DNA of 47,153 nt from NCBI GenBank assembly GCA_902612825.1, contig CACMET010000001.1, positions 99,014 to 146,166 on the forward strand. Reading direction: 5' to 3'. The notes under the pieces are model-generated. The model did not search any database, was not told the DNA's origin, and saw only the letters and a list, made by a program, of their open reading frames with translations. Shown piece by piece: positions 1,809-33,805 of this stretch; within the stretch, counting starts at the first letter, position 1; every line of letters begins with the position of its first letter. Source of the DNA: an uncultured Alphaproteobacteria bacterium. GTDB taxonomy: Bacteria; Pseudomonadota; Alphaproteobacteria; HIMB59; GCA-002718135. A program made the position numbers and the translations under genes.

Positions 1809-1815
1809 ATCTTTA

Positions 1816-9795: not shown

Positions 9796-10785
9796 ATGAA
9801 AAATATCGCATTTATTGGAACCTCACATATTCATACGCCAAATTTTATTGCTAAGGTAATTTCAAACAATCAAATTAATTGCATTGGTGTTTGGGACAAA
9901 GACAAGAACAGGTCAAAAAGTGATTCTGAAAAACTGCAATGTAAGAATTATGATAACTATATTGATTTATTGAAAGAACCTAATTTAGATGGTGTTATTG
10001 TATGTTCAGAAACTAATTTGCACTATCAATTAGTTAAAAAGATTACTGAGAATAAAAAACACTGTTTTATAGAAAAACCTTTGGGGATAGGAAAAAAAGA
10101 TTCTTTTGAAATGGCAAATCTTATTGAGTCTTCAAATATTATTTTTCAAACTGGATATTTCATGAGAAGCAATCCTGTTTACATAAAACTTAAAGAACTA
10201 ATTACTGCTAATTATTTTGGCGAAATTTCAAGAATTCGACTCGTTAATTGTCACGATGGTATTATGAGGGATATTTTCAAAAACTATCAGTGGATGACAG
10301 ATACCAAAGTTGCTGGAGTTGGAGCTTTTGGTGATTTAGGAACACATGTTTTAGATCTTCTATTGTGGTTTTTTTCTGATGTTGAGTCAGTAAGTGCAAC
10401 CTTTACAAAAGTATATAATCAATATCCAGGTTGTGAAGAGAGTGGAGAAGCATTAATAAAATTTAAAAGTGGGTTGATAGCTAGTATTGCTGCGGGATGG
10501 ATAGATGTAGCGCAGCCTTATACTATTTTTGTAAGTGGAACGAAAGCTCACGCAAGAACAACGAATGAGCAATTAATTATAAACGAATATAAGGAAGGTA
10601 AAAAAATAGAAAGAATAGAAGAAAATTTACCAGAAACATTGCCTCATGCATTTGATTTGTTTCTCAATTCATTAATTGATAACAATACTAAAAACCTAAT
10701 TACTCCTACAGAAGCAGCATTGAGAAGTGGTATAATGGAATCAATTTACCAATCAGAAAAAGAAAAAAAATGGATAAATATCTAA
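9796..10785 (+). CDS. Gfo/Idh/MocA-family oxidoreductase (A)
   Basis: A 329-residue NAD(P)-dependent protein. The N-terminal Rossmann fold starts IAFIGTSHIHTPNF. The family motif EKPLGIG is at about 95-101, with the Lys that contacts substrate and nicotinamide. A second domain carries GDLGTHVLDLLLW with the usual Asp/His pair. The family covers sugar dehydrogenases, inositol dehydrogenases, trans-dihydrodiol dehydrogenases and NAD-dependent glycosidases that use a redox-assisted mechanism (GH4-like chemistry, as in GH109 and GH188). It begins 18 bases after the ATPase gene, so it most likely acts on the transported compound. The exact substrate cannot be read from the sequence. Confidence 0.85.
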   Translation: MKNIAFIGTSHIHTPNFIAKVISNNQINCIGVWDKDKNRSKSDSEKLQCKNYDNYIDLLKEPNLDGVIVCSETNLHYQLVKKITENKKHCFIEKPLGIGKKDSFEMANLIESSNIIFQTGYFMRSNPVYIKLKELITANYFGEISRIRLVNCHDGIMRDIFKNYQWMTDTKVAGVGAFGDLGTHVLDLLLWFFSDVESVSATFTKVYNQYPGCEESGEALIKFKSGLIASIAAGWIDVAQPYTIFVSGTKAHARTTNEQLIINEYKEGKKIERIEENLPETLPHAFDLFLNSLIDNNTKNLITPTEAALRSGIMESIYQSEKEKKWINI

Positions 10786-10801
10786 ATTAAAAAATATAAA
10801 T

Positions 10802-11860
10802 ATGAGTAAAATAAAAGTTGGTATTATTGGCGTTGGGGGTATTGCGAAGTTACATGTACCTGGTTGGCGCATGTCAGAACATGCAGAATTAATAGCAGGT
10901 TCCGATATAAACAAATCAACTCTAGAAGATTGGGGTAATACTAATCAAATAAAAAAATTATATCTTGATCCCTTAGACATGATTAATGATCCAGATATAG
11001 ATGTGATAGATATTTGTGCACCTAATAACTATCATTGCGATTTAGCAATTAAAGCTATGCAAGCTGGCAAAGATGTTTTATGTGAAAAACCCTTAGCTCC
11101 AAATGCTTCACAAATAAAAAAAATGATTGAAGTAAGAGATCAAACGAAAAAAAAATTAATGTGTGCTCAACACTTTAGGTTCAGAAAAGATTCTCAATTA
11201 ATAAAAGATCAATCCAAATCAATTGGTTCGATATATCATGCACGCTCTTGGATGCTTAGAAGAAATTTTTTACCAGTCTCACTTGGTTTTTTAAAAAAAG
11301 AAAATTCAGGAGGAGGGCCTTGTATTGATATAGGGGTGCACGTATTAGATTTAACTCTTTGGTTTATGAACAATCCAGAACCACTTTCTGTGACGGGTGT
11401 GTCAAAAACAGAATTAGCAAAGCAACCAAATTCTTTTAGTTACAATGGAGAGTACGATAAGGAAGCAATGAACGTTGAGGATTTTGCAGCTGCGTTTGTT
11501 AGGTTTAAAAATGGTGCAACCTTGATGCTTGAAGTATCATGGATGCTTCATCATAAACTACCAGAAGATAAAATAGAAGATATGCAAGTATGGTTATACG
11601 GAAGAGAAGCTGGTTTACATTGGCCTAATTGTGAGATTATAAAAAATGATATCAATTCTCAAACTCACATAACTAAAAAAATTGAAGGAAATTCAAAAGA
11701 CACTATTGAACCTCATGCCAAAGAATGTATCGAGTTTGCAGAATTTGTTGCAAACGATCAACCAGTTACTATTCCGGCTGAACACTCTCTACAAGTAATG
11801 AAAATTTTAGATGGAATTTATAAAAGTCAAGAAGTAGGAAAAGAAATTATTTTAGAATAA
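10802..11860 (+). CDS. Gfo/Idh/MocA-family oxidoreductase (B)
   Basis: A 352-residue paralogue of the preceding gene. The Rossmann motif is VGIIGVGGIAKLH, the family Lys motif is CEKPLAPN (about 96-103), and the second domain has GGGPCIDIGVHVLDLTLW with conserved Asp and His. It differs enough from its neighbour that the two are probably not redundant: they may catalyse successive oxidation/reduction steps on one sugar, or one may be an NAD-dependent glycosidase. It is separated by 16 bases from gene A and 13 from the permease downstream, well inside the operon. Confidence 0.86.
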   Translation: MSKIKVGIIGVGGIAKLHVPGWRMSEHAELIAGSDINKSTLEDWGNTNQIKKLYLDPLDMINDPDIDVIDICAPNNYHCDLAIKAMQAGKDVLCEKPLAPNASQIKKMIEVRDQTKKKLMCAQHFRFRKDSQLIKDQSKSIGSIYHARSWMLRRNFLPVSLGFLKKENSGGGPCIDIGVHVLDLTLWFMNNPEPLSVTGVSKTELAKQPNSFSYNGEYDKEAMNVEDFAAAFVRFKNGATLMLEVSWMLHHKLPEDKIEDMQVWLYGREAGLHWPNCEIIKNDINSQTHITKKIEGNSKDTIEPHAKECIEFAEFVANDQPVTIPAEHSLQVMKILDGIYKSQEVGKEIILE

Positions 11861-11873
11861 TAGATTATGATTA

Positions 11874-12773
11874 ATGAAAAATAATTTATTTTTAGCTGTT
11901 ATATTATCACTTTCAGGTTTGTTTTTATTGGATTGTATGGGGATTGCGATAAAGTTTTTACGAAACGAATATCCAGCAGCTCAACTTTCTGTTTTTAGAA
12001 ATTTATTTGGAATGATCCCATGTGTTATTGCTTTATATTTTTCACATGATTGGCATCAAAATGGTAGACAAATAAAAATAACGAAATGGAAGTTAGGACT
12101 ATTTCGAGGGGTATTTGTAGCACTGGCTCAATTGTGTTTGTACACTTCTTATGCCTACCTTCCTTTTGCTTTAGTTGCTACCATGGAATACACAGGACCT
12201 ATGATGGTTACCCTTCTTGCTATTCCTATATTAGGTGAAAAATTTGGTTGGTATAAAATGAGTGCAGTAATTTCTGGTTTTGCAGGTATCGTTTTAATTA
12301 TGCAACCTTGGTCATCAGATTTTAATTATATGTTACTACTTCCTATACTTGCTGCTTTAGGGTATTCATTAGCAAGGGTAACTTCTTTAAGTTTTGAGTA
12401 TCATGTTCCTTCACCACTTATTAACTTATATGGTCAAACAGGGACAATCATAGTTGCATGTATGTTAGTAATGTTTTTTGGTATGTGGGAAAATTTTAAA
12501 AGTATAAATGATTTCTTAGTAGTTTGTGTTATGGGAATTGCAGGAGGATCTGGAACTTTATTATTAATCTACGGTGCTAGAAAAGCAGAACTTAGTAAAA
12601 TTATGCCATTTGATTACATTGAAATATTTTTTGCACTTATTTTAGGTTGGATATTTTTTGCAGAATGGCCAGTTGACCAACTCTTCCCAGGTGCTTTTTT
12701 CATAGTTTTAGGTGGATTAATCATTTATCTTCAACAAAGAAAAAATAATTTTCAAAGATTGAGAAAAATATAA
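11874..12773 (+). CDS. EamA/DMT-family permease
   Basis: An integral inner-membrane protein of 299 residues with about ten hydrophobic helices in two EamA halves (first ending near IVLIMQPW, second from LLPILAALGYSLARV). Members of this family usually move small organic metabolites and often act as exporters. Its place inside a catabolic operon suggests uptake or release of a pathway compound, for example a C2 or C3 organic acid; this is inference. The stop overlaps the next start (TAATG). Confidence 0.85.
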   Translation: MKNNLFLAVILSLSGLFLLDCMGIAIKFLRNEYPAAQLSVFRNLFGMIPCVIALYFSHDWHQNGRQIKITKWKLGLFRGVFVALAQLCLYTSYAYLPFALVATMEYTGPMMVTLLAIPILGEKFGWYKMSAVISGFAGIVLIMQPWSSDFNYMLLLPILAALGYSLARVTSLSFEYHVPSPLINLYGQTGTIIVACMLVMFFGMWENFKSINDFLVVCVMGIAGGSGTLLLIYGARKAELSKIMPFDYIEIFFALILGWIFFAEWPVDQLFPGAFFIVLGGLIIYLQQRKNNFQRLRKI

Positions 12774-13825
12774 TGGAATATAAAATTACCAAACTTCAAA
12801 ATGATAAAGGTTTAGATATTGATATAGTCAATATTATTAATTCAAATAATTACAGTTTTAGCTTTTGTACATATGGTGGCTATATAAGTGAAGTATGTAT
12901 TCCAACTTCCTCTAATGAATCTGAAACAGAGGACGTATTATTAGGTTATGGTAATTTAGATGATTGTCTAGAAGCTCATGGATATTTCAATTCAATTATT
13001 GGAAGAGTTTGTAATAGAATAGGGCAAAGTAAATTTAGTCTTAATGGGGAGGATTATAATTTATATCCTAATACAGCGCCAGATCATCTTCATGGTGGAA
13101 AGGAAGGTTTTAATAAAAAGATTTGGCAAATAGCAGATATTAATAAAAAAAGTGATAGCATAAAAGTAGAGCTCGCTTACTATTCTAATCATTTAGAAGA
13201 AAACTATCCTGGCAACTTAGATTGTAAAACTATTTACGAATTAAATAATAACAACGAAATGTTAATTTCTTTTCATGCTACTACAGATCAAGATACTATT
13301 GTTAATATAACTAATCATAATTATTGGAACTTTCATGGTCATAAAGATAATTACAAAAATATTACAGAACATGTTGTTAAAATATCATCTAATCAAATTT
13401 GTGAAACTGATGAAGGCTCAATACCTACAGGTAAGTTATTAGATGTAGTTAATACAAAATATGATCTAAATAATTCGTTTGAAATTAATAATATTTTTTT
13501 AGACAGTGGTGGGATTGATCACAATTATGTTCTTAAAAATCATTCAATTGATAAATCTATAGCTTCCATCTATAGTAAAATTACTGGCATGGGGGTAGAA
13601 TACTCAACTGATCAACCTGGAATACAATTTTATACTGGTAACATGATGAAGGAGTCATACAACGGAAAACATGATAGAAATTATGGTTTACAATATGGAA
13701 TGTGTTTAGAGACACAAATCTTCCCTGATGCTATTAATCAACCAAATTTTCCATCAACTATATTAAAAAAAGGTGAAAAATATACTTCAAATACTAAAAT
13801 AAAATTAAGAAATGATTTTAAATAA
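12773..13825 (+). CDS. Aldose 1-epimerase (mutarotase)
   Basis: GalM-type mutarotase, 350 residues, cytoplasmic. It interconverts alpha and beta anomers of a free hexose. Family motifs are present in order: GRVCNRI (77-83), DHLHGG with His107, NHNYWNFHG with the catalytic His182, GIDHNYVL, QPGIQFYTGNM, and CLETQIFPDAINQP near the C-terminus with the catalytic Glu. Catalytic residues appear intact. It is coupled by overlap to the EamA permease and lies 47 bases before comD. Sulfoquinovose operons of the yih type carry a mutarotase of this family, which is why I treat it as a possible sulfosugar mutarotase; glucose or galactose remain equally allowed by sequence alone. Confidence 0.9.
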   Translation: MEYKITKLQNDKGLDIDIVNIINSNNYSFSFCTYGGYISEVCIPTSSNESETEDVLLGYGNLDDCLEAHGYFNSIIGRVCNRIGQSKFSLNGEDYNLYPNTAPDHLHGGKEGFNKKIWQIADINKKSDSIKVELAYYSNHLEENYPGNLDCKTIYELNNNNEMLISFHATTDQDTIVNITNHNYWNFHGHKDNYKNITEHVVKISSNQICETDEGSIPTGKLLDVVNTKYDLNNSFEINNIFLDSGGIDHNYVLKNHSIDKSIASIYSKITGMGVEYSTDQPGIQFYTGNMMKESYNGKHDRNYGLQYGMCLETQIFPDAINQPNFPSTILKKGEKYTSNTKIKLRNDFK

Positions 13826-13872
13826 ATTAATTTATTGTTTAATCATTTTATATCTATAGACATCAAAAAAAA

Positions 13873-14373
13873 ATGAAAATCAGTAAAAAAATTATCGATA
13901 ATTTAAAAAAGGGTGGTGTAGATTTTTACTTAAGTGTTCCTTGCAAGTTATTAGCTAACATGATTGATATTCTTGAAAAAGATAATGATGTTTACTATTC
14001 GGCTGTACCACGTGAGGAAGAAGGTATGGGTATCTGTGCTGGAGCTTATTTAGGAAATAAATTCCCTTGTATAATGATGCAGAATACAGGAATAGGAAAT
14101 TCAGTGAATGCAATTGTTTCTTTATTGCAATTATATCAAATGCCTGTTGTTTTTCTAATTAGTTACAGAGGTACACCAGGTGAGCCAGTAGGAGCACAAG
14201 GTGGAATGGCTAAAATAACTGAAGATATTTTACAGACTTTAAGAATACCTATGTTGCATTGTTCTTCAGAAAATGATCTTGAGAAAATTTCAACATTTAG
14301 CAAACATGCTAAAGTTGTGGAGTCACCAGTTGCTATATTATGTGATTTCAATTTAATGAAAGATGATAAATGA
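13873..14373 (+). CDS. comD: Sulfopyruvate decarboxylase, alpha subunit
   Basis: A thiamine-diphosphate enzyme subunit of 166 residues, the same size as archaeal ComD (about 169). ComDE converts 3-sulfopyruvate to sulfoacetaldehyde and CO2. Characteristic segments are SVPCKLLANM (21-30), VPREEEGMGICAGAYLG (45-61, with the Glu that activates thiamine diphosphate), MMQNTGIGNSVNA, and SYRGTPGEPVGAQGG. These agree closely with what I recall of Methanocaldococcus ComD. The gene overlaps comE by 4 bases (ATGA), as expected for subunits of one enzyme. Phosphonopyruvate decarboxylase is homologous, but its two halves are usually fused. No clear Shine-Dalgarno site precedes the start. Confidence 0.88.
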   Translation: MKISKKIIDNLKKGGVDFYLSVPCKLLANMIDILEKDNDVYYSAVPREEEGMGICAGAYLGNKFPCIMMQNTGIGNSVNAIVSLLQLYQMPVVFLISYRGTPGEPVGAQGGMAKITEDILQTLRIPMLHCSSENDLEKISTFSKHAKVVESPVAILCDFNLMKDDK

Positions 14374-14939
14374 ACCGGTTTGACTTATTAAATAAAATAC
14401 AAAATATTCTTAAAGATAACTTAGTTATTTGTAATATAGGTCTTCCATCTCAAGAATTATATAAAATTAACGATCAACCAAACTTTTTTTATATGTTAGG
14501 CAGTATGGGTTTATCCTCTTCTATTGGTTTAGGCTTGTCATTATCTCAAAATAAAAATGTTGTTAGCATAGATGGTGATGGATCTGTTTTAATGAATATG
14601 AATACATTAGCAACAATTGGCAATAGAGCACCATCAAATTATACTTTATTAATAATTGATAATGGATCATATGGATCAACAGGAGATCAAAGGACTTTTA
14701 CTGATGAAAATACTTCTTTAAAAGATGTTGCAATAGGTGCTGGTTGTAAAAATGTAGTTGAATGTTCTGGAGATGAAACAGTAAATGAATTATCAAAAGC
14801 TATTAACGATCAAAATAACTCTTACGTAATTATCTCTAAAATTAATTCTGGGAACGTCAAAATTGATCCAATTCCTCTTAATCCTATAACGATCAGAGAT
14901 AGATTTAGAAAGTTTATGGGTATTGTAAAATACCTATAA
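14370..14939 (+). CDS. comE: Sulfopyruvate decarboxylase, beta subunit
   Basis: Thiamine-diphosphate-binding partner of ComD, 189 residues (archaeal ComE about 188). YMLGSMGLSSSIGLGL (41-56) and IDGDGSVLMNMNTLATIG (67-84) form the cofactor-binding core. The diphosphate motif GDG at 69-71 pairs with the Asp-Asn at 97-98 in IIDNGSYGSTGDQ. The segment NIGLPSQELY near the N-terminus is also typical of ComE. Xsc, which would consume the sulfoacetaldehyde product, is not in the window. In methanogens ComDE serves coenzyme M synthesis; in aerobic marine bacteria it usually serves sulfolactate or dihydroxypropanesulfonate breakdown, and the operon context favours the latter. Confidence 0.9.
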   Translation: MNRFDLLNKIQNILKDNLVICNIGLPSQELYKINDQPNFFYMLGSMGLSSSIGLGLSLSQNKNVVSIDGDGSVLMNMNTLATIGNRAPSNYTLLIIDNGSYGSTGDQRTFTDENTSLKDVAIGAGCKNVVECSGDETVNELSKAINDQNNSYVIISKINSGNVKIDPIPLNPITIRDRFRKFMGIVKYL

Positions 14940-14949
14940 ATAAATACTT

Positions 14950-15858
14950 ATGATCATTTGTGTAGGATCAATATTTTTAGATAATATAAGTAGGATAAAT
15001 CAGTTTCCAAAAAAACCAATTAAAGTTTTATCTAAAGGTATTGATAAAAGGTTAGGCGGTTCAGCAGCAGTATCAGCATTTACTGCTAAAAAATTGGGTT
15101 GTGATACCAAATTTATTGGAAAATTTGGTGATGATGATGCTTCTGTTTTCTTAAAAAATGAATTTAAAAAATTTAAAATTAATATCAATAAATCTATTTC
15201 AATAAAAAAATGTCAATCCTCACAAAGTTTTGTAATTGAAGATATTAATGGTGAAAGATTGCTAGCTGCTTATAATGATCCAAAGTTACTTAATTATAAG
15301 AAAATACCAAATTTAGATTTTAGAAAAAAAGATATTTATGCAGTAGATATGAGGTGGATTAGAATAGCTACTGAAATTGCCAAAAAGACTAAAAAAAATA
15401 ATATTAAATGTGTTGCCGACCTAGATAATTTTAAAAAAACATCAAATATATCAAAAATCGTTAAAAATGCTTCCCATCCTATATTTTCTGAAGAGGGTTT
15501 AAAAATATATAAACCAAATACAAATATGAAGATTGCCCTTTTTGAAATATTTAATGAAACACAAAAATTTGTAGCGGTTACATTAGGTTCCCAAGGCGTT
15601 CTTTGGGTAGATAACAATTCATTGTATCACTGTAAAATTCCAAAAGTTAAAACAGTTGAAACAAATTGTGCAGGAGATGTATTTCATGGAGCTTTCGCAT
15701 CTGCCTTATCTCTAAATAAATCAAATATAGAAAGTATTATTTTTGCATCTGCTGCTGCAACTTTAAAATGTATGCAAAGTGGAGGTATATATTCAATACC
15801 TACAATTAGTTTGGTTAATAAATTTTCAAAAAAAATAAAAATTAGTAAAATTAAATGA
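14950..15858 (+). CDS. PfkB-family sugar kinase, YihV (sulfofructose kinase)-like
   Basis: A 302-residue ribokinase-fold kinase. Segments that track E. coli YihV as I recall it: GGSAA near 36-40, IGKFGDDD (56-63), SSQSFVIED..GER (90-103), VDMRW (132-136), IFSEEGL (178-184), VTLGSQGVLW, and AGDVFHGAFASAL (241-253), ending LKCMQSGG..SIP. The catalytic base is Asp243. The anion-hole motif is CAGD instead of the usual GAGD (Cys240). Arg135 and Lys25 align with YihV residues I remember as contacting the sulfonate (Arg138, Lys27), but the position of YihV Asn109 is Ala107. It could phosphorylate sulfofructose or another ketose; 2-keto-3-deoxygluconate kinase is the main alternative. It overlaps the dehydrogenase gene by 4 bases (ATGA). 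Confidence 0.75.
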   Translation: MIICVGSIFLDNISRINQFPKKPIKVLSKGIDKRLGGSAAVSAFTAKKLGCDTKFIGKFGDDDASVFLKNEFKKFKININKSISIKKCQSSQSFVIEDINGERLLAAYNDPKLLNYKKIPNLDFRKKDIYAVDMRWIRIATEIAKKTKKNNIKCVADLDNFKKTSNISKIVKNASHPIFSEEGLKIYKPNTNMKIALFEIFNETQKFVAVTLGSQGVLWVDNNSLYHCKIPKVKTVETNCAGDVFHGAFASALSLNKSNIESIIFASAAATLKCMQSGGIYSIPTISLVNKFSKKIKISKIK

Positions 15859-16778
15859 TAAATATTTTAATTACTGAATTTATAGATCCGGAAGCATTAA
15901 AAATCTTAAGTAAAGATTTTAATGTGATCTACAAAAAAGATATTTGGGAAAATTCTGATTATTTAAAAAAAGAAATTAATAAATTTGAAGGAATAATTGT
16001 AAGAAATAAAACAAATTTAAATCAATCTATTTTAGAGAAAGCAGAAAATTTAAAGTATATTGGTAGACTGGGTGTAGGTCTAGATAATATTGACACTGAA
16101 TACTGTAAAAAAAATAATATATTTGTTCAACCAGCGACTGGGATGAATGCTGACTCTGTAGCAGAATATGTAATAAGTTCTTCACTTAGCCTATTAAAGA
16201 AAACAAAGCTAATAAATGCAAAAACACAAAGTGGACAATGGCCTAGAACGTCAATTACTACGAACGAGTTAAAGGGAAAAATTTTAGGTCTAATAGGATT
16301 TGGTGATATTGCAAAAAAAGTTTTAAAACTTATAAAAGCTTTTGAAGTTACGACTATTGCATTTGACCCTTTTATAACTTCTCAAGAAATGGAAGAACAT
16401 AATGTTAAAAAAGTAACTTTTGAAAATATTCTTTTTTTAGCTGATATAATTTCTATACATGTACCATTAAATAATGAAACGAAATATTTATTTGATAAAA
16501 AAACATTTCAAAAAATGAATAATAAACCAATTATTATTAATTCTTCTAGAGGAGGAATTATAAATGAAACAGACATACTTGAAGCGTATAAGAACAATTA
16601 TATTTCAGGATTTGCGTTAGATGTTTATGAACATGAACCAGTAAACAAAATATTTTTAAAAAATATTACAAACGATATGAATTGTATTCTATCACCACAT
16701 ATTGCAGGAGTTACAGAAGAATCTAATACAAGAGTAAGTGAGTTTATTATGAATAAAACAAACGAATTTTTTTTCTAA
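15855..16778 (+). CDS. D-isomer-type 2-hydroxyacid dehydrogenase, candidate sulfolactate dehydrogenase
   Basis: NAD(P)-dependent 2-hydroxyacid dehydrogenase of 307 residues with an intact active site: nucleotide motif GLIGFGDIA (145-153), catalytic Arg232 in NSSRGG, Glu261 in YEHEP, His282 in SPHIAG. The N-terminal IIVRNKTNLN and IGRLGVGLDNID resemble the (S)-sulfolactate dehydrogenase branch (SlcC) as I recall it, though phosphoglycerate- and glyoxylate-type enzymes share parts of this pattern. Downstream of comDE the simplest role is 3-sulfolactate to 3-sulfopyruvate, feeding the decarboxylase. It is the last gene of the rightward run and converges on the next gene with 2 bases between stops. 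Its exact substrate is unproven. Confidence 0.72.
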   Translation: MINILITEFIDPEALKILSKDFNVIYKKDIWENSDYLKKEINKFEGIIVRNKTNLNQSILEKAENLKYIGRLGVGLDNIDTEYCKKNNIFVQPATGMNADSVAEYVISSSLSLLKKTKLINAKTQSGQWPRTSITTNELKGKILGLIGFGDIAKKVLKLIKAFEVTTIAFDPFITSQEMEEHNVKKVTFENILFLADIISIHVPLNNETKYLFDKKTFQKMNNKPIIINSSRGGIINETDILEAYKNNYISGFALDVYEHEPVNKIFLKNITNDMNCILSPHIAGVTEESNTRVSEFIMNKTNEFFF

Positions 16779-16780
16779 TT

Positions 16781-17881
16781 TTAAATTTTAAATTCATCCA
16801 TTTTAACAATTCTATTTTCTTTTATAGAAATTTCGGCAGCTTCACCAATAGCAACTGCTTGTAAACCATCATTTAGACTTACAGCAGCTGGTTTAGAATT
16901 TTTAATAGAATTAAGAAATGAAATATGCTCATAATATGTAGAGCCATGATGATTTCCTACTTTTAAAATCTCTTCATCAACCTCCACGAGCTCATTAAGA
17001 GTTTTTCCATTTTCAAAATTTCTTCCTCGATATCCAATCCTTAATTCAGATGAGTTTTTGCCTGAACTAGCTGAAGGTACAGCAGTTTCAATTTTACCGA
17101 TATCTCCAACCGCACATAACTCCTCTTGATTTGTTGAGTTTTCTGCAAACATACAGAGATCAAGCAAAGCTCTAACTCCATTTTGAAAATCAACAATTAC
17201 ATAGGCATTATCAAGAATATCAGGAGTTTTATTGTTATATTTTTCGTTTAAATGATTAACATCTTGATTGCCACTTGCATAAACTTGTTTCGCTTCACTA
17301 TTCACAATTAACCTCATTAGATCAAAAAAATGACAGCATTTTTCAACTAATGTGCCGCCTGTATTTTCCGCAAATCTATTCCAGTTATTCACCTTAACTA
17401 AAAAAGGAAATCGGTGTTCTCTAATTGATAACATTTTTAAATTACCAATTGTTTTATTATGAATTTCATCAATCATTCTTTTTACGGGTGGCATATATCT
17501 ATATTCCATTGCGGTCCAAATTAAACCTGGATAATTTTTAGTCAAATCTCTAAATTCGATACAATCTTTAATTGTTGTACATAACGGCTTTTCTACTAAG
17601 ATATGTTTCTTTGTTTTAATTACATCTTTTAGTACATCTATATGTGTAAAATTAGGAGTAGAGATTATGTACCCATCAACAAGATCAGCTTGTATCATTT
17701 CATTATAGTTTGTAAAACATGGAACTTTTTTATTAAGTAATGATAAAGATTGATTAATTGATTCATCATGTGGATCACTTAAAGCAACAATTTCTGCTTC
17801 ATCAATTATATTAACATTTCTGATATGTTCACGACCCATTGATCCAGCACCTATTATCCCATATTTAAAACTTTTGCTCAT
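16781..17881 (-). CDS. Gfo/Idh/MocA-family oxidoreductase (C)
   Basis: The third Gfo/Idh/MocA protein in the window, 366 residues. The N-terminus KYGIIGAGSMGREHIRN is a classical Rossmann start. The Lys motif is VEKPLCT (about 95-101), and the substrate domain has GGTLVEKCCHFFDLMRLI, where Cys-His replaces the more usual Gly-His. It is translated from an ATG that overlaps the stop of the isomerase-like gene upstream (17878-17881), so the two are a coupled pair. Likely a sugar or cyclitol dehydrogenase or oxidoreductive isomerase; substrate unknown. Confidence 0.85.
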   Translation of the reverse strand: MSKSFKYGIIGAGSMGREHIRNVNIIDEAEIVALSDPHDESINQSLSLLNKKVPCFTNYNEMIQADLVDGYIISTPNFTHIDVLKDVIKTKKHILVEKPLCTTIKDCIEFRDLTKNYPGLIWTAMEYRYMPPVKRMIDEIHNKTIGNLKMLSIREHRFPFLVKVNNWNRFAENTGGTLVEKCCHFFDLMRLIVNSEAKQVYASGNQDVNHLNEKYNNKTPDILDNAYVIVDFQNGVRALLDLCMFAENSTNQEELCAVGDIGKIETAVPSASSGKNSSELRIGYRGRNFENGKTLNELVEVDEEILKVGNHHGSTYYEHISFLNSIKNSKPAAVSLNDGLQAVAIGEAAEISIKENRIVKMDEFKI

Positions 17882-19245
17882 ACTGTGTATGTTGGAATAT
17901 TCATCTGATTACCTAAATTAACTATTTCTTTATAATGATCACCGTAAGTAAAAGCAACGTGATGCTCAAGTCCACCTTTAAACATTTTTTCTATTTTATT
18001 TTTTGTATTTTTGCCAAAACTTACTACACCTGAAGTTCCAGCAAATGAATTTTTCCTATTGATCACTTTTCCTTTAAGTACAAAAAATTTTAATTTGTTT
18101 GCTGATTTTGAAACTCTGAATATTGTTATACCTCCTGGTTTAAAAGCAAAATTATGAAGTAGTGGTTTTTTTCTATTAGAATGTATATCCGCTTTTGCAT
18201 CACCTTTTTTAGACATACTAAGAGGTGCTAACCCACAATGCCAAAAAACAACAGAATTATCTTTTTCATCTATATCGACAATATCCACTAGTAAAGAAGG
18301 TTGATTGTTTAATTGGTTTAGTATGTTGCAACTTATTCCTCCTAAAACGTCTGCTTCGCAAGCACTGCTAATTTTTTTTTCATTCATCATAGCCATAGGA
18401 CCACAAGAAGCACAACCAAATTCTGTAAACATTTCTGGCCAACATCTAACTGCAAATGCTTGAACATCGTGTTTTGTGTGAAGTGTATTTAATCCATGGT
18501 ATATTGAAATACTTTTTTTTAATTCATGTTGATTTAATTTTTTTGAATTCTTCAAATTTTTCTCAATTTTTATTTGTGTTGAATTTAAAACTGACTTTTT
18601 AATTTTTTTAGCTTCTGAGAATAGTTCATTTAATTTTATTTTTTTAATATCAAAATTTAATTTTTTCCTAATTTCTAATAATGAATAATCACATGTATCA
18701 AAACCTTCAGGTCTTTCACCAACAAGTCCAATGTTTTGTTTCTTTATATCTATTTTTTTATAACTTTTTTTTCTAATCTGTTTCCATTCAATTATTTTAT
18801 TGCTATAAATTTTTTTATTAATAAATTTTTTAATTCTTTTTTCTACGTCTTTATGATTATTATATAATATGAATTCAGCATTAATTTTATTTTTAATTAA
18901 TGAGTGCATTCCTAAATTTAATCCACATACTGAATTAAGTCTTAATCTCTTACCAGTTCGTGGCTCTGGAAAGGCAACAATACACAAAGGTTTATTTATC
19001 TTTCTAGCAAAATGTAATAAAAATTTTGCATCTGTGAATGTAGTTTGAAAAATTATAATTTTTTTAAAATTATTATCTTTAAAATATTTAAATGCTTTAT
19101 CTGATAATTCATTATTAGTAATTAAATAATCAATTCCTTTTATTTCAGTAAAAATATTTCGTAGAACTCTTTTACCTTCTAAAAACTTAGACATTGCAAA
19201 AGGCACATCAAAAGTTTCTCGTGCTAATCCTAGGTATCCAATCAT
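17878..19245 (-). CDS. L-fucose/L-arabinose isomerase-like protein
   Basis: A 455-residue protein of the fucose/arabinose isomerase superfamily (COG2407 type), shorter than E. coli FucI (about 590). The C-terminal half carries the diagnostic region: RCWPEMFTEFGCASCG, then SACEADVLGGI with the metal-binding acidic residues, FWHCGLAP, and GLEHHVAFTYGDH near the end. The N-terminal half (Rossmann-like) is more divergent and lysine-rich. Aldose-ketose isomerisation of a free sugar is the expected activity. Candidates are L-fucose (a fucosidase lies 13 kb downstream) or the sugar handled by the neighbouring operons. Together with the coupled oxidoreductase it forms a two-gene leftward unit divergent from the sugar ABC transporter. 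Confidence 0.75.
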   Translation of the reverse strand: MIGYLGLARETFDVPFAMSKFLEGKRVLRNIFTEIKGIDYLITNNELSDKAFKYFKDNNFKKIIIFQTTFTDAKFLLHFARKINKPLCIVAFPEPRTGKRLRLNSVCGLNLGMHSLIKNKINAEFILYNNHKDVEKRIKKFINKKIYSNKIIEWKQIRKKSYKKIDIKKQNIGLVGERPEGFDTCDYSLLEIRKKLNFDIKKIKLNELFSEAKKIKKSVLNSTQIKIEKNLKNSKKLNQHELKKSISIYHGLNTLHTKHDVQAFAVRCWPEMFTEFGCASCGPMAMMNEKKISSACEADVLGGISCNILNQLNNQPSLLVDIVDIDEKDNSVVFWHCGLAPLSMSKKGDAKADIHSNRKKPLLHNFAFKPGGITIFRVSKSANKLKFFVLKGKVINRKNSFAGTSGVVSFGKNTKNKIEKMFKGGLEHHVAFTYGDHYKEIVNLGNQMNIPTYTV

Positions 19246-19357
19246 TATTATTTCAACTATAGTTAATAATTTTCTGACAAACCATGAAAATAAAAAAATT
19301 TAAAGACTAATTATATAAATAATCACTAATTTTCTTATAAATTATATTAATTTTTTT

Positions 19358-19385
19358 TTGAATTCGTATGGGTTCGTGTTATCAA
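19358..19385 (+). promoter_or_regulatory. Possible sigma70-type promoter of sugar ABC operon
   Basis: TTGAAT (19358-19363) and TATCAA (19380-19385) are separated by 16 bases, each matching four of six consensus positions. They lie in the 168-base divergent gap ahead of the binding-protein gene. The GGAGGA ribosome-binding site follows at 19405-19410. In such AT-rich DNA chance matches are common. The rest of the gap shows no feature I can name except two copies of TTCGT (within 19362-19377). Confidence 0.3.
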
Positions 19386-19413
19386 TATTACATTAAATTT
19401 AATTGGAGGAATT

Positions 19414-20664
19414 ATGAAAAGAATATTAGCTATTTTTCTTTTTGTTACTTCAGCTTCATTTACTGTAAATTCAGCAGAATTGAAGTTCATATGTTATCAA
19501 GATATTAATGAATGTGATACTATTGCAGACATGGCTAAGTCATGGGAAGCATCAACTGGTCATACATTAAATATTGAAACAGTTGGATATGAAGTAATAA
19601 GAGAACAACTAGAAAATCAATTAGAATCAGGTGCTGCACCAGATTTGGCTAGAGTAACAAATTTAGGAGGATTAAATAAATTCTATTTAGACCTAAAACC
19701 TTATGTTGATTCTTCATATTGGGAATCAAACTATGGCGCAACACTTCCTTGGTACAGAAAACCTTCAGGTGATGATGGTATTTACGGTTGGCAAACTCAA
19801 TTAACTGTTACAGGACCTTATGTAAACGTTACAATGTTTGAGGATGCAGGTGTAGATATGCCTGAAGAAGGTGCTACATGGGACGATTGGGCTGAAGCCT
19901 TAAGACAAGTAAAATCGGAACTTGGTTTAACAGCAGGTCTTGCACTAGATCGAACTGCACATAGATGGGCTGGACCAGCTTTTTCTTATGGAGCAAAGTT
20001 TCACGAAAATGGAACACCAATTTTAGTTGATGAAGGATTTAGAAAATTTTCTGAGGTATTTGTTGGATGGCATGAAGAAGGATTAATGCCGGCTGAAGGC
20101 TGGCCTGCAGGTGCAGGTACTTCTTACAGAAATGCCGCTCCTTTATTCCTAGATGGAACTGTTGCAATGCATATGTCAGGTTCATGGATGCTAGGAAACT
20201 ATGACACTAACATCACAGATTTTGAGTGGAAGGTAGTACCTATTCCTTGTGGTCCAGGTGGATGTGGAGCAATGCCAGGTGGATCAGGTATAGTTGCATT
20301 TAAATCAACACAACATCCAGAGGCTGCAGCATCATTTATCGATTTTATGTCACAAACTGAAAATGCTGAAAAATTTGCTGCTTCTACAAGTAATATTACT
20401 GCTCACCAAGGGTTACAAAAATCTGGTATAGATTATACAGGTGTTAGTCCTAATGTTGCTGAAGGTCTTGCAATTTTTGCAGCAAATGCAGGAAAAGCGG
20501 CAGATACAACTCCTCAAGCCTATTGGTTCCAAGGTTATAATAAAAACTTTGCAATATATGGGATTGTTCCTGATTATATTACTAAAGCAATTACAGGAGA
20601 GATGACTCTTGATGAAGCTTTAGCAGCAATTGATGCAGATGTAGCTGCAAAAATCGCTGAATAA
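19414..20664 (+). CDS. Sugar ABC transporter substrate-binding protein, family 1
   Basis: A periplasmic carbohydrate receptor of 416 residues. Signal peptide MKRILAIFLFVTSASFTVNS, likely cleaved after NSA (residue 21). MalE/UgpB-type features follow: DIADMAKSWEASTGH-like opening, ESGAAPDLARV, the GWQTQLTV hinge, LFLDGTVAMHMSGSWMLG (about 250-267) and GSGIVAFKSTQHPEAAASFIDFM (about 290-312). Two Cys pairs (Cys26/Cys33 and CGPGGCG) may form disulfides. It heads the rightward operon of two permeases, an ATPase, a GH31 glycosidase and a uronate-isomerase-like enzyme, so the ligand is probably a glycoside that GH31 hydrolyses inside the cell. A hairpin follows the gene. Confidence 0.92.
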   Translation: MKRILAIFLFVTSASFTVNSAELKFICYQDINECDTIADMAKSWEASTGHTLNIETVGYEVIREQLENQLESGAAPDLARVTNLGGLNKFYLDLKPYVDSSYWESNYGATLPWYRKPSGDDGIYGWQTQLTVTGPYVNVTMFEDAGVDMPEEGATWDDWAEALRQVKSELGLTAGLALDRTAHRWAGPAFSYGAKFHENGTPILVDEGFRKFSEVFVGWHEEGLMPAEGWPAGAGTSYRNAAPLFLDGTVAMHMSGSWMLGNYDTNITDFEWKVVPIPCGPGGCGAMPGGSGIVAFKSTQHPEAAASFIDFMSQTENAEKFAASTSNITAHQGLQKSGIDYTGVSPNVAEGLAIFAANAGKAADTTPQAYWFQGYNKNFAIYGIVPDYITKAITGEMTLDEALAAIDADVAAKIAE

Positions 20665-20674
20665 ATTTAAATCC

Positions 20675-20699
20675 TAAGGCCGATTTTAAATCGGCCTTA
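20675..20699 (+). terminator. Hairpin (attenuator) after binding-protein gene
   Basis: A perfect inverted repeat, TAAGGCCGATTT and its complement around a single T, lies 10 bases after the receptor stop and ends 9 bases before the permease start. Only a broken T-run (TTAATTTAATT) follows, so it probably terminates partially or stabilises the receptor mRNA. Confidence 0.75.
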
Positions 20700-20708
20700 A
20701 TTTAATTA

Positions 20709-21764
20709 ATGTCTGAAAATATTTTAAATCTTAATTATTGGTATTTTGTAATATTCATTTATTTATTTATTGGATTTTTACTATCCAAAGGAGTCATTGG
20801 AAGTATTTCTAGACTTATGTCAGTTATTGGATGGCCAATTGAATTAGCACAAAGACTAAGCGGCACAAAAAGTTTACCTTACTTATTTTTATTTCCTAAC
20901 ATATTAATTTTTGGTCTTTTTACTTTTTTACCACTTTTTATGAATTTTGGATTTTCTGTAACCGATGGAGAAAGTATTAACTTTTCTTCAAGAGATTACT
21001 CTGGTTCAGATAATTTATCTAGAATAATTTCAGAAACACAAATTGATACTGGTATTGAAAATATGGAGGATGATAAGTTTAAAGCTTCAATAGCAGATAC
21101 ATTTATATTCGTCTTATTCCAAGTTCCTATAATGATCGTTGTAGCTTTAATTACTGCTGTTGTTCTTAATAGAGAAATAGTAGGAAGGGCGTTTTGGCGA
21201 GCCGTATACTTCTATCCAGTCATGCTTAGTCCAGTCGTAGTAGCTTTCCTTTGGACTTTAATCTTAAAACGACAAGGGCTGTTATCTCAAACTTTAATGG
21301 AATGGAATTGGATTGACCAACCCATTCAATGGTTAACAGATCCTTCATGGACAATGTTTTGGTCAGTATTTATTTATACTTGGGCTCATTTAGGATTTTA
21401 TATGTTAATTTTATTAGCTGGCTTACAATCAATTCCAAAAGATTTATATGAAGCTGCAGAAATGGATGGAACATCAGATCAGAGGGCGTTTTGGAGAATT
21501 ACCCTTCCTCTTTTAATGCCTATTCTTTTAGTTGTAACAGTTTTATCTTTAATAAAAGCTTTTCAAGCTTTTGAAGAATTGTTTGCATTACAAGTCGGAT
21601 GGATTTCATTAGTTTCATATATTTTTGAAACAGCTGGTTTAAGAGGTCAAAAAACAACTTTTGGATTAGGCATTGCTGCCATGGCATCTTTATTAGTAGC
21701 CTTATTGTTAATTCTTTTATCATTACTCCAATTTTATTTAACTAGAAGGCAGGTTAAACTTTGA
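20709..21764 (+). CDS. Sugar ABC transporter permease, MalF type
   Basis: Inner-membrane permease of 351 residues with an extra N-terminal helix (YWYFVIFIYLFIGFLL) ahead of the standard six-helix core that starts near PYLFLFPNILIFGLF. A periplasmic loop (about 85-125) follows the next helix. The EAA coupling loop reads EAAEMDGTSDQRAFWRITLP (about 255-274), which docks on the ATPase. It overlaps the second permease by 4 bases in the arrangement TTGA, where the next gene starts at TTG. Confidence 0.9.
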   Translation: MSENILNLNYWYFVIFIYLFIGFLLSKGVIGSISRLMSVIGWPIELAQRLSGTKSLPYLFLFPNILIFGLFTFLPLFMNFGFSVTDGESINFSSRDYSGSDNLSRIISETQIDTGIENMEDDKFKASIADTFIFVLFQVPIMIVVALITAVVLNREIVGRAFWRAVYFYPVMLSPVVVAFLWTLILKRQGLLSQTLMEWNWIDQPIQWLTDPSWTMFWSVFIYTWAHLGFYMLILLAGLQSIPKDLYEAAEMDGTSDQRAFWRITLPLLMPILLVVTVLSLIKAFQAFEELFALQVGWISLVSYIFETAGLRGQKTTFGLGIAAMASLLVALLLILLSLLQFYLTRRQVKL

Positions 21765-23200
21765 GCGCTGTAATCAAATTTTTTTCGAGAACCCATGGAA
21801 AAAACAAACTTTCTTTTATAGATTGGATTGCTTATCTTTATCTTTTTTTAGGATTTCTAATTATATTCTTACCTGTTTTGTGGTTGTTATTAAATTCTAT
21901 AAAATCTCAATTTTTACTTCAAAAATTAGATACTAATTTATTACCTTTAGATTATGACAGAGTTGTAAGAGCAACAGTTTTTGGACCAAATGGAAAAGAA
22001 ATTTTTATAATTAAAGATCTTCCTGATTGGGTAATATATTGGAATGAGTTGAGAGATGAAGATAAAAAAGAAGTTAACGACCCTAATCTTTTCCTTACAC
22101 AATTTGAAGGCAAAGAATATTATGCTTTAAGAACTCATTTAGGATTAGTTTCTGATCACGCCAAGGAACTAATCAAAGAAAAAAATTTTCCTGAGTGGTT
22201 AATAAAATATCCAAGTATGTTTCCTGATGCCAAAAAAGAATACAATCCTGCAGAATATTTAATAGATTTAAATGATGAGGAAGTTAGACTTTTATCAGAA
22301 TTTCTTGGTTTAAAACCTTATAAGCCTAATGGATTTACCTCTCAAATTTTAATTTCTGCAAAAAATAAAGAAACTAATGAAATTGAGGAATATTCCGTTA
22401 GCAGACTAAATACAAATAAAGATACAGTTAATGCTAGGCTAATTTCAAATCCGCAGGGGGGTATTGTTAAGATTCCTACTGAAGATATTATCGTTAATAA
22501 AAAACTTAGACCTTCTTGGATTAATTATTCTGACCCTTTAACAAACAATGTGAGGGGCATGAATTTTGATGCTATCAAGTGTTTGAATAATTCAGTTTTT
22601 GTTACAATTATTGCAACAATAATCACAGTTCTGATAAATTCAATGGCTGCATTTGCTTTATCAAAATATAAGTTCAATGGACAAATAATTTTCTTTATTA
22701 TAATTCTAGCAACTTTAATGGTTCCAGCTTCAGTTCTGATTGTTGGCATATTTAAAATGGTTTCTGTCACAGGTTTAAATGGAACTTTATGGGGTGTTAT
22801 TATACCCGGGGCTGCAACACCTACCGGTGTATTTATGTTAAGGCAATATATGTTAACTATTCCAGATGAACTACTTGAAGCTGCAAGAATGGACGCTGCT
22901 AGTGAATGGAGTATTTACTGGAGGATTGTTTTCCCACTGGCTTTACCAGCAATCGCAGTTCTTGCAATTTTATCAATTATTTGGAGATGGAATGATTTAA
23001 TTTTACCAATGATAGCAGTATCAACCACAAAAACTGCATATACTATTCAATTATGTCTTCTAGATTTTCAGGGCGAATATGTAGCTCAAGAGCATTACAG
23101 ATTGGCAATGACAGTTGTCAGTCTTATACCAACTACTTTAGTATTTGTTTTTCTACAACGATATATTACTACTGGAATTGCTAACACAGGAATTAAATAA
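21761..23200 (+). CDS. Sugar ABC transporter permease, MalG type with large periplasmic insert
   Basis: Second permease, 479 residues against about 280 for ordinary MalG-type proteins. The first helix (about 18-46) is followed by about 200 hydrophilic residues (47-265), then by the normal core: NNSVFVTIIATIITVLINSMAAFALSKYKF, and the EAA loop EAARMDAASEWSIYWRIVFP. The insert has no Cys and looks like a folded periplasmic domain. The start is TTG at 21761 overlapping the upstream stop; no other start exists before the first helix, so translational coupling must drive it. Confidence 0.88.
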   Translation: MSAVIKFFSRTHGKNKLSFIDWIAYLYLFLGFLIIFLPVLWLLLNSIKSQFLLQKLDTNLLPLDYDRVVRATVFGPNGKEIFIIKDLPDWVIYWNELRDEDKKEVNDPNLFLTQFEGKEYYALRTHLGLVSDHAKELIKEKNFPEWLIKYPSMFPDAKKEYNPAEYLIDLNDEEVRLLSEFLGLKPYKPNGFTSQILISAKNKETNEIEEYSVSRLNTNKDTVNARLISNPQGGIVKIPTEDIIVNKKLRPSWINYSDPLTNNVRGMNFDAIKCLNNSVFVTIIATIITVLINSMAAFALSKYKFNGQIIFFIIILATLMVPASVLIVGIFKMVSVTGLNGTLWGVIIPGAATPTGVFMLRQYMLTIPDELLEAARMDAASEWSIYWRIVFPLALPAIAVLAILSIIWRWNDLILPMIAVSTTKTAYTIQLCLLDFQGEYVAQEHYRLAMTVVSLIPTTLVFVFLQRYITTGIANTGIK

Positions 23201-23202
23201 TC

Positions 23203-24225
23203 ATGGCAACTTTAGAATTGAAAAAAGTAAGAAAAAATTATGGAAACTTGGAAGTAATTCACGGCATTGATTTATTTATTAATAATGGAGAGTTTTGTGT
23301 ATTAGTAGGCCCATCAGGATGTGGCAAATCTACATTATTAAGAATGATTGCTGGATTAGAAAGGATTACAAAGGGTGATATTTTAATCGATGAACAAGTT
23401 GTAAATAATATTTCTGCAGCAAGAAGAGGTTTAGCAATGGTTTTTCAATCTTATGCTTTATATCCTCATATGAGTGTTAGACAAAATTTAGCTTTTGGAC
23501 TGGAAAACTTAAAAATGGAAATAAATGAAATTGATAAGCGTATTTTGGAAGCTGCAAGACTACTTAGAATGGAAGAATATTTACAAAGAAAACCAGGGCA
23601 ATTATCTGGTGGACAAAAACAACGAGTCGCAATTGGTAGAGCAATAGTAAGAGAACCATCAATATACCTATTTGATGAACCACTTTCTAATTTAGATGCT
23701 GAACTTAGAGTTGCAACACGAGTTGAATTAAAAGCATTACATGCAAGGCTAGGAAATACTATGATCTACGTAACTCATGATCAAGTAGAAGCAATGACAA
23801 TGGCTGATAAAATTGTAGTAATGAATGATGGTATTATTGAGCAAGTTGGAGCACCTTTAGAATTATATAACAAACCATCTAATAAGTTTGTAGCAGGTTT
23901 TATTGGGTCACCAAAAATGAATTTTATACAATTTGACTATCTTCCAAATTCTCTAAAAGAAATAGCACCGTCTAACTCAATAAGTCTTGGAATTAGACCT
24001 GAGCATCTATCCATTAAAGACGAAAATTCACTATCACTAAATGTTGAAACAGTTGAGCAATTAGGTTCTGACAGTTTTTTGTATGGATCAACCTTAGGAG
24101 AACAAAAAATTTCAATAAAACTTAATTATCAAACTGATATTCAGGCTAATCAATCAATTAAGGTTGGGTTTAAACTAGATGATGCTCATTGGTTTGATAA
24201 AGATGGTATTGCTCTAACATCTTGA
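23203..24225 (+). CDS. Sugar ABC transporter ATPase, MalK/UgpC type
   Basis: Nucleotide-binding subunit of 340 residues. Walker A GPSGCGKST (about 37-45), Q-loop MVFQSYALYPHM, signature QLSGGQKQR, Walker B IYLFDEPLSNLD, switch His in VTHDQVEAM. The C-terminal regulatory TOBE-type region contains the usual SLGIRPEHLSI. It is the expected size for a sugar-class (CUT1) ATPase. Its stop overlaps the TTG start of the GH31 gene by 4 bases. Confidence 0.93.
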   Translation: MATLELKKVRKNYGNLEVIHGIDLFINNGEFCVLVGPSGCGKSTLLRMIAGLERITKGDILIDEQVVNNISAARRGLAMVFQSYALYPHMSVRQNLAFGLENLKMEINEIDKRILEAARLLRMEEYLQRKPGQLSGGQKQRVAIGRAIVREPSIYLFDEPLSNLDAELRVATRVELKALHARLGNTMIYVTHDQVEAMTMADKIVVMNDGIIEQVGAPLELYNKPSNKFVAGFIGSPKMNFIQFDYLPNSLKEIAPSNSISLGIRPEHLSIKDENSLSLNVETVEQLGSDSFLYGSTLGEQKISIKLNYQTDIQANQSIKVGFKLDDAHWFDKDGIALTS

Positions 24226-26603: not shown

Positions 26604-26608
26604 TTTGT

Positions 26609-28555: not shown

Positions 28556-28585
28556 CTTTTGTTAAAGTATATTTTATTTAATAAT

Positions 28586-30010: not shown

Positions 30011-30011
30011 T

Positions 30012-31196: not shown

Positions 31197-31282
31197 TTAA
31201 ATATTTATACCTAACAAAGTTATAAATTAAAATATTTTTTAAATATTGATTTATTTAAGATTATTAAATATTTTAAATATTA

Positions 31283-32281: not shown

Positions 32282-32326
32282 TGTTTATCAAACAATTTAT
32301 TTTTATTTTTTTAGTTTTATTAAATA

Positions 32327-33787: not shown

Positions 33788-33805
33788 TAAAAATCTGTCT
33801 ATAAT

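Follow-up and report, generated by a model that had tools for sequence, protein, structure and literature searches.

About 10 billion tons of sulfoquinovose (SQ), a sulfur-containing sugar of plants and algae, are produced each year (PMC8873060, PMC10755693; papers are cited here by PubMed Central (PMC) number and for individual passages of their text). According to a 2022 review, degraders that cleave the carbon chain of this sugar mainly leave C3 or C2 sulfonates to other organisms, with few "extended" exceptions, and extended sulfoglycolysis has been described with SuyAB or HpfGD (PMC9594981); a 2025 discussion describes it as unusual for a single bacterium both to cleave the sugar and to desulfonate (PMC12421959). 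Here we analyze a 47,153-nt window (contig CACMET010000001.1, C1:99014-146166) of a 1.36-Mb, 78.9% complete assembly from an uncultured alphaproteobacterium of order HIMB59, alias AEGEAN-169. In this window a candidate sulfosugar cassette adjoins comD and comE, predicted to encode the two subunits of sulfopyruvate decarboxylase. From gene families and gene order we consider it reasonably probable that the organism has an extended sulfo-EMP (Embden-Meyerhof-Parnas) route for the complete use of SQ within one cell.

The sulfo-EMP pathway of Escherichia coli (yih genes) and Arthrobacter AK01 shares with the window a YihV-group kinase, the logic of isomerase, kinase and aldolase and, in Arthrobacter, a GH188 sulfoquinovosidase of the SqgA type. 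Unlike that pathway, the window has a FucI-type isomerase in place of YihS, no YihT-like aldolase was found in its clade, and its product would probably not be merely excreted but enter a branch formed by ComDE and Xsc. The FucI-type isomerase, of the SqvD family, is shared with sulfo-EMP2 and hybrid clusters (SqvD/SqiK/SqiA), for which isozyme mixing has been reported (PMC9594981), although the window's kinase is of the YihV type and its cluster has no class II SqiA. An upper cassette and a desulfonation route likewise meet in one genome in extended sulfoglycolysis with SuyAB, cases of which are found in Thermotogae and Chloroflexi (PMC9594981), in the actinobacterium IMCC26103 (PMC11465081) and in the Thioglobus-type and Marinicaulis loci described below. 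Those of IMCC26103, the Thioglobus type and Marinicaulis have isomerase, kinase, dehydrogenase and sulfoquinovosidase as well. The nearest published relative is the actinobacterial GH188 cluster, with a fucose isomerase, a sulfofructose kinase, a "phosphoglycerate dehydrogenase" and SuyAB (PMC11465081). Where these systems have SuyAB, the window has ComDE together with Xsc.

The lower branch resembles that of Roseovarius nubinhibens, which takes sulfolactate through sulfopyruvate and sulfoacetaldehyde to acetyl phosphate and sulfite (PMC6278857). There, and for SlcC of Chromohalobacter, sulfolactate is fed from outside, whereas the branch considered here adjoins a sulfosugar cassette. Cleavage and desulfonation also occur in one bacterium in the tandem sulfofucolytic-sulfolactate sulfolyase pathway of Paracoccus wurundjeri, where the sulfolactaldehyde (SLA) dehydrogenase is also unresolved; unlike the window's, that pathway is of Entner-Doudoroff (ED) type, acts on sulfofucose and uses SlcC, ComC and SuyAB (PMC12421959). 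A route of the ComDE-Xsc type is one known fate of 2,3-dihydroxypropane-1-sulfonate (DHPS) (PMC12330013, PMC11489063). The Roseovarius and DHPS passages cited here do not place ComDE-Xsc in one organism's SQ pathway (PMC6278857, PMC12330013, PMC11489063). The terms "sulfopyruvate" and "Xsc" are absent from PMC9594981 and PMC12890257, as are "sulfopyruvate" and "AEGEAN" from PMC13372026, and none of the open-licence PMC main texts searched joins sulfoquinovose, sulfofructose kinase and sulfopyruvate decarboxylase. Within the open-licence PMC literature searched, a ComDE/Xsc ending appears to be new for SQ degraders. If it is real, an abundant, streamlined group of the surface ocean would be a one-cell sink for SQ sulfur, one that could escape surveys looking for SuyAB, SMO or GH31.

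The reactions, substrate and flux that we infer from these gene families and their order, both of which are read from the sequence itself, would run as follows. The ABC importer (19414-24225) would bring in SQ or SQ-glycerol, the GH188 enzyme would liberate SQ from its glycoside, and the FucI-type isomerase would convert SQ to sulfofructose, which the YihV-type kinase would phosphorylate to sulfofructose-1-phosphate. An aldolase, of the LacD or class I type in sister lineages and not found in the window's clade, would yield dihydroxyacetone phosphate (DHAP) and SLA. A GabD-type dehydrogenase would oxidize SLA to (S)-sulfolactate, the dehydrogenase at 15855-16778 would take this to sulfopyruvate, ComDE would decarboxylate sulfopyruvate to sulfoacetaldehyde, and Xsc would release acetyl phosphate and sulfite. 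In this way an SQ module would feed a sulfonate branch that is also retained without it in the genus (Table 1).

Table 1. Predicted genes of the candidate sulfosugar cassette and its flanks (positions in the window)
Feature	Position	Strand	Evidence
EamA-family transporter, possible exporter	11874..12773	+	PF00892 80.3 bits
galM-type aldose 1-epimerase, candidate sugar mutarotase	12773..13825	+	PF01263 236 bits
comD, sulfopyruvate decarboxylase alpha	13873..14373	+	TIGR03845 161.3 bits
comE, sulfopyruvate decarboxylase beta	14370..14939	+	TIGR03846 222.1 bits, marginal
PfkB kinase, YihV-type (predicted sulfofructose kinase)	14950..15858	+	PDB 7AG6 144 bits; YihV tree group
D-2-hydroxyacid dehydrogenase, candidate SlcC-type (S)-sulfolactate dehydrogenase	15855..16778	+	PF02826/PF00389
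GH188 NAD+-dependent sulfoquinovosidase, SqgA type	16781..17881	-	8QC3/8QC2 370/364 bits
Sulfoquinovose isomerase-type protein (SftI/SqvD, FucI-like)	17878..19245	-	NF048012 290 bits
Sugar ABC transporter solute-binding protein, candidate sulfoquinovose/glycoside importer	19414..20664	+	78-83% to Thioglobus-type loci
ABC permease A	20709..21764	+	77-83% to complete Thioglobus-type copies
ABC permease B	21761..23200	+	73-79% to Thioglobus-type loci
ABC ATPase, MalK type	23203..24225	+	PF00005 + TOBE; 72-77% to Thioglobus-type loci

Evidence for a sulfosugar substrate

The initial annotation of this DNA had described five adjacent genes on one strand, from galM to the dehydrogenase gene, with two short overlaps, and the coordinates of the open reading frames agree: comD and comE overlap by 4 nt, as do the kinase and dehydrogenase genes, and a gap of 10 nt separates comE from the kinase gene. 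It had overlooked the adjoining GH188, isomerase and importer genes, which are the strongest evidence for a sulfosugar. The GH188 and isomerase genes, themselves overlapping by 4 nt, lie on the opposite strand and converge with the dehydrogenase gene. The GH188 protein matches 8QC3 and 8QC2 over its full length and 8ZN9 with 309 bits, and the next Gfo/Idh-family protein reaches 103. Eight sulfonate-binding or catalytic residues of ArSqgA (Arg166, Leu170, Lys172, Tyr136, Glu189, His193, His321 and Lys107; PMC10755693) are all conserved in an alignment numbered by hand with an offset of 13; for a ninth, Glu163, this numbering is off by one position, and the neighboring Glu is conserved.

The kinase points in the same direction. 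It is 34% identical to YihV, and its best solved relative is the sulfofructose kinase 7AG6, with 144 bits against 96 for the next structure when the single sequence is searched, and 190 against 124 with a seven-row profile. In a tree of 25 rows it shares a group of 12 rows with YihV (support 97/95), nested in 21 rows of kinases from SQ loci (93/97), and E. coli KdgK, RbsK and PfkB and the organism's own IolC-like kinase are all separate from this group; KdgK, PfkB and IolC are long branches in this tree, and 12 rows, the window's included, have an unusual composition. The placement bears out the earlier description of the kinase as YihV-like rather than as a 2-keto-3-deoxygluconate (KDG) kinase or ribokinase. 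Lys25 and Arg135 of the window kinase align with Lys27 and Arg138 of YihV, which we take, as a lead only, to be sulfonate contacts; a third residue that we presume to be such a contact, Asn109, is Ala here. The putative mutarotase is nearer E. coli GalM (28%, 167 bits) than YihR (22%, 38 bits).

The sole NCBIfam match of the isomerase is to the SftI model NF048012, over its full length and with 290.4 bits against a cut-off of 700, and its profile found no relative in the PDB beyond one chance match (E 0.91). This distant likeness to SftI, the modest identity of the kinase to YihV and the tandem breakdown of sulfofucose in Paracoccus (PMC12421959) would fit the same chemistry with a different sulfosugar or glycoside as substrate, such as sulfofucose or a sulfoglycoside of algae. 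We regard that substrate as improbable, since GH188 is a family of SQ glycosidases whose eight placed contact and catalytic residues are conserved here, and since the described sulfofucose route is of ED type and has no sugar kinase (PMC12421959). A neutral-sugar cassette that happens to stand beside a phosphonopyruvate decarboxylase or another thiamine pyrophosphate (TPP)-dependent decarboxylase is very hard to credit: PfkB kinases, D-2-hydroxyacid dehydrogenases and FucI-like proteins do belong to broad families, and genes of hexuronate type lie downstream, but GH188, the grouping of the kinase with YihV, Xsc and the SuyB-like partners of related cassettes all speak for a sulfosugar. The identity of ComD and ComE as phosphonopyruvate decarboxylase was rejected, their scores being 99 and 134 bits against a cut-off of 312.5. 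We favor a model in which the cassette acts on SQ.

A proposed branch from sulfolactate to sulfite

ComD and ComE had been read as sulfopyruvate decarboxylase in the initial annotation, and both subunits exceed the curated cut-offs, ComD with 161.3 bits against 147.95 and ComE, marginally, with 222.1 against 221.5, a margin of only 0.6 bits. The product of the gene at 15855-16778 is read as a candidate sulfolactate dehydrogenase chiefly because of a Marinicaulis locus (L177 in our numbering) that resembles the SlcC/ComC/SuyAB set reported in Paracoccus (PMC12421959): a 37% identical relative of the dehydrogenase lies there in one block with exporter-like, ComC-like and SuyA/SuyB-like genes. 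In this block the ComC-like protein reaches 198 of 500 bits with NF040650, and proteins of 414 and 95 aa, which match galactarate dehydratase under its cut-off, are read by us as probable SuyB and SuyA from their sizes and gene company. Among the 120 near-identical relatives of the window's dehydrogenase listed, one (97% identical) has been automatically named (S)-sulfolactate dehydrogenase and the rest are nameless; a single automatic name is weak support for this identity.

The contig that holds the window also encodes the enzyme that would follow ComDE (C1:76749-78476), at a distance of 20.5 kb upstream; the initial annotation, confined to the window, could only propose a search for it. This Xsc scores 956 bits against the TIGR03457 cut-off of 676.4, a cut-off exceeded in none of 14 control genomes. 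Xsc probably serves taurine too, because genes that by eye are Tpa-like, alanine-dehydrogenase-like and Pta-like lie between xsc and the window. Elsewhere in the same genome and apart from ComDE, a phosphonoacetaldehyde-dehydrogenase-like and a phosphonoacetate-hydrolase-like gene were noted by eye (L109:422-3102).

Candidate enzymes for cleavage of the sugar and oxidation of sulfolactaldehyde

A search of the genome for an aldolase, as the initial annotation had suggested, gave no dedicated one, and none was found in the window's clade, some members of which give only a LacD match of about 30%, in another locus. Among 102 genomes of the genus, a close LacD occurs in eight, of which seven have the kinase and none belongs to the window's clade, and 12 further genomes give a LacD match of about 30% only. 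The organism's own incomplete genome has no LacD match at 1e-10, and no LacD was found in a relative (G078) that is 96% complete by tool and whose named counterpart is given as 98.8% complete (PMC10734472). Of the five genus loci read that diverge most, four have a LacD-type aldolase, which resembles YihT (26%, 85 bits), next to the isomerase. The same is true of 10 of the 13 Thioglobus-type loci, and one of the remaining three is truncated at that point.

The obvious candidate to stand in for the absent enzyme would be a class II fructose-bisphosphate aldolase (FBA), present in many genus genomes, mostly as a protein of 352-376 aa, with the organism's own copy at C17:20197-21165. Some kinase-bearing genomes have no class II FBA-family match or a short one only, for which incompleteness may be the explanation. 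The short class II aldolase was rejected as the pathway enzyme, since by eye it adjoins iolC/iolB-like genes in the organism's own genome. The second LacD (about 30%) of relatives was rejected likewise, the copies in L089 and L092 lying in a separate, non-sulfosugar locus. That locus (L089:2417-11336 and L092:3745-13821) holds, by eye, a FucI-like isomerase, DhaL/DhaK-like proteins, the second LacD and a beta-hydroxyacid dehydrogenase, and looks like an uncharacterised sugar or polyol pathway.

For the oxidation of SLA, GabD-type proteins are found at E <= 1e-100 in 82 of the 102 genus genomes. The organism's own genome has no match at that threshold and contains two GabD-type pieces at contig ends, with identities of 58% and 53% to the E. 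coli protein. In the Marinicaulis locus a GabD-type gene adjoins the kinase gene, with 685 bits to the succinate-semialdehyde dehydrogenase (SSADH) model (cut-off 646), and GabD-2 of marine bacteria has been named a sulfolactaldehyde dehydrogenase (PMC11131964).

Distribution and gene order in the genus

Order HIMB59 ranks among the groups that dominate the upper epipelagic ocean (PMC10734472). The kinase (E <= 1e-20) is present in 66 of its 162 genomes, every one of which belongs to the window's genus, itself represented by 102 genomes that are 53-96% complete. Near-identical named contigs come from uncultured Alphaproteobacteria (AG- isolates); AG-891-K05 serves as reference for a species placed in family GCA002718135 of this order (PMC10734472), and NCBI places the related AG-337-I02 in Pelagibacteraceae. 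One metagenome-assembled genome (MAG) titled Proteobacteria (L169), which we kept out of the counts, has kinase and ComDE together, its kinase grouping with those of genus members.

As a broad sample of the other 65 kinase-bearing genomes we picked 20 loci and compared the 20-kb stretches that surround their kinase genes. In 19 of them galM-comD-comE-kinase-dehydrogenase faces GH188-isomerase in unbroken order, and in the twentieth (L050) it does so as far as it can be read, to a contig end inside comD; the arrangement is therefore not a matter of chance. Sequence conservation declines stepwise along it. In nine loci of the main clade, median identity to the window is 96% for comD, 94% for comE, 78% for the kinase, 71% for the dehydrogenase, 62% for GH188, 57% for the isomerase and 36%, where matched, for the binding protein. 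The window's GH188 is 66-69% identical to Thioglobus-type copies against 61-64% to main-clade copies from its own genus, and its importer 72-83% identical to the complete Thioglobus-type one, the main clade giving 36-62% or no close match. We take this to mean that the import half was probably exchanged with a Thioglobus-like source. In MarineAlpha5_Bin5 (G002; L066:2936-7482) a Pot-like ABC transporter lies upstream of galM-comDE, where others have Opp and EamA.

ComE is present in all 66 kinase-bearing genus genomes, a figure that is not independent co-occurrence, since chromosomal linkage ties ComE to the cassette. In kinase-free genomes comDE is followed, directly or almost so, by genes found far downstream of it in the window: uxuA, an aldo-keto reductase (AKR) gene or the agmatinase gene located at 33806; galM is missing or replaced in two of them (L213 and L212), and the contig of a third (L205) stops at comE. 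Because comDE stands in 15 kinase-free genomes with the downstream genes closing up, the cassette appears to lie in a variable slot beside an older comDE. To judge from gene order, then, comDE is independent of the cassette, and the cassette (14950-19245 and the importer) is an occupant of that slot. The single operon running from sulfosugar to sulfoacetaldehyde that the initial annotation proposed thus has to be corrected: the genes are adjacent, the kinase does fall with YihV and the genome does encode Xsc, but the cassette abuts a comDE that also occurs without it. Between comE and the agmatinase gene (14950-33805 in the window), downstream content varies strongly from genome to genome and includes several transporter types; one slot (L054) contains a protein resembling formylglycine-generating enzyme (FGE) sulfatase proteins.

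Several of our observations count against a complete route from SQ to sulfite. ComE passes its model narrowly, and 32 of the 81 ComE loci counted, at a threshold of at least 209 bits, score just under the curated cut-off. The nearest named NCBIfam model of the dehydrogenase is phosphoglycerate dehydrogenase (252 of 454 bits), no model reaches its cut-off and no SlcC model matched; the isomerase, far under the equivalog cut-off, is classed as a relative of SftI and not as its equivalog; and the LacD search of the 102 genomes revealed no dedicated sulfofructose-1-phosphate aldolase in the window's clade. "SuyB-like", as used below, is a reading, the query being the SuyB-like protein of the Marinicaulis locus and not a curated model. 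In the genus, ComE occurs in the 15 genomes without the kinase, and Xsc does not track the kinase, being present in 54 of 66 genomes with it and 29 of 36 without (Fisher p = 1).

Since comDE occurs kinase-free and Xsc does not follow the kinase, both have other uses and their adjacency to the cassette could be chance siting. Such an accident at an island site would suit an ordinary sulfo-EMP pathway that excretes sulfolactate, perhaps through the EamA-family protein, in a cell whose ComDE and Xsc handle other substrates, such as phytoplankton-derived sulfolactate or DHPS, or taurine. Besides the taurine-type genes near xsc, this account draws on the excretion of sulfolactate by Arthrobacter (PMC8873060) and on the proposal that SAR11 and others convert DHPS to sulfopyruvate by way of sulfolactate (PMC11131964); the EamA-family gene itself is found in genus genomes both with and without the cassette. 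We nevertheless think excretion unlikely, because in all 20 loci read the cassette holds a candidate maker of the ComDE substrate one gene past comE, and because full use looks like the common pattern, with a SuyB-like protein in 15 of 20 other genomes that have the same kind of locus. We therefore continue to favor complete use of SQ. As to its fuller form, in which HIMB59/AEGEAN-169 would turn SQ glycoside into sulfite and central carbon by sulfo-EMP and ComDE/Xsc in place of SuyAB, the main clade relying on a housekeeping aldolase, we see the case as evenly poised.

Two probable desulfonation endings

No SuyB-grade match was found in the 102 genus genomes, 74 of which give matches of 27-32% only, mostly in frames of about 500 aa that we read as altronate-dehydratase-type proteins; in the organism's own genome the query finds nothing better than 29% identity, in a frame of 501 aa. 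With matches of only about 30%, SuyAB was rejected for the genus. Outside it, we searched 20 genomes with an isomerase locus, chosen from 30 non-genus loci (omitted were L124, L165, L173, L179, L182, L183, L186, L188, L189 and L192, of which L124 is still counted among the 13 Thioglobus-type loci above). The kinase lies in the same locus in 19 of the 20. A SuyB-like protein is present in 15, one being the query's own and the others 65-89% identical to it; ComE at E <= 1e-30 is present in none, and Xsc in 10. A similar upper cassette with two different desulfonation endings would amount to a natural experiment. Genomes of the Thioglobus/SUP05 type (L123-L131, L164, L166 and L181), usually discussed as sulfur oxidizers, have the sulfosugar cassette and importer; SuyB-like proteins occur in seven and Xsc in eight of the 11 searched.

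Other features of the window and of related loci

Two neighboring candidates were rejected as parts of the pathway. The GH31 protein (24222-26603) reaches 81 bits with the sulfoquinovosidase YihQ against 188 with its best match, and its gene occurs in the 20-kb stretches of five of the 20 loci only, the window's close kin. The Gfo/Idh pair at 9796-11860 is absent from 10 of 19 readable kinase loci, L050 ending before it. A scan for promoters and terminators was uninformative, with 53 promoter-like sites against 54.9 expected and no terminators.

Downstream of the importer, 24222-33787 holds a second sugar set: GH31, a 400-aa unannotated protein that we take, from a DIHTHLF motif near its start, to be uronate-isomerase-like, a short-chain dehydrogenase/reductase (SDR), a uronate/mannitol-type dehydrogenase, the mannonate dehydratase UxuA, an AKR and a GH29 fucosidase. 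At 759-3351, beside an Opp transporter, lie genes for a short MetE-like protein and for a PehA-like hydrolase of phosphoric/sulfuric esters (408 of 900 bits). Another locus (L006:5053-8198 and 15334-16407) encodes, close together, several proteins of 324-365 aa, at least two of them sharing a WHP...GPAGIGT-like stretch; a sugar ABC transporter and a MetE-like protein adjoin them.

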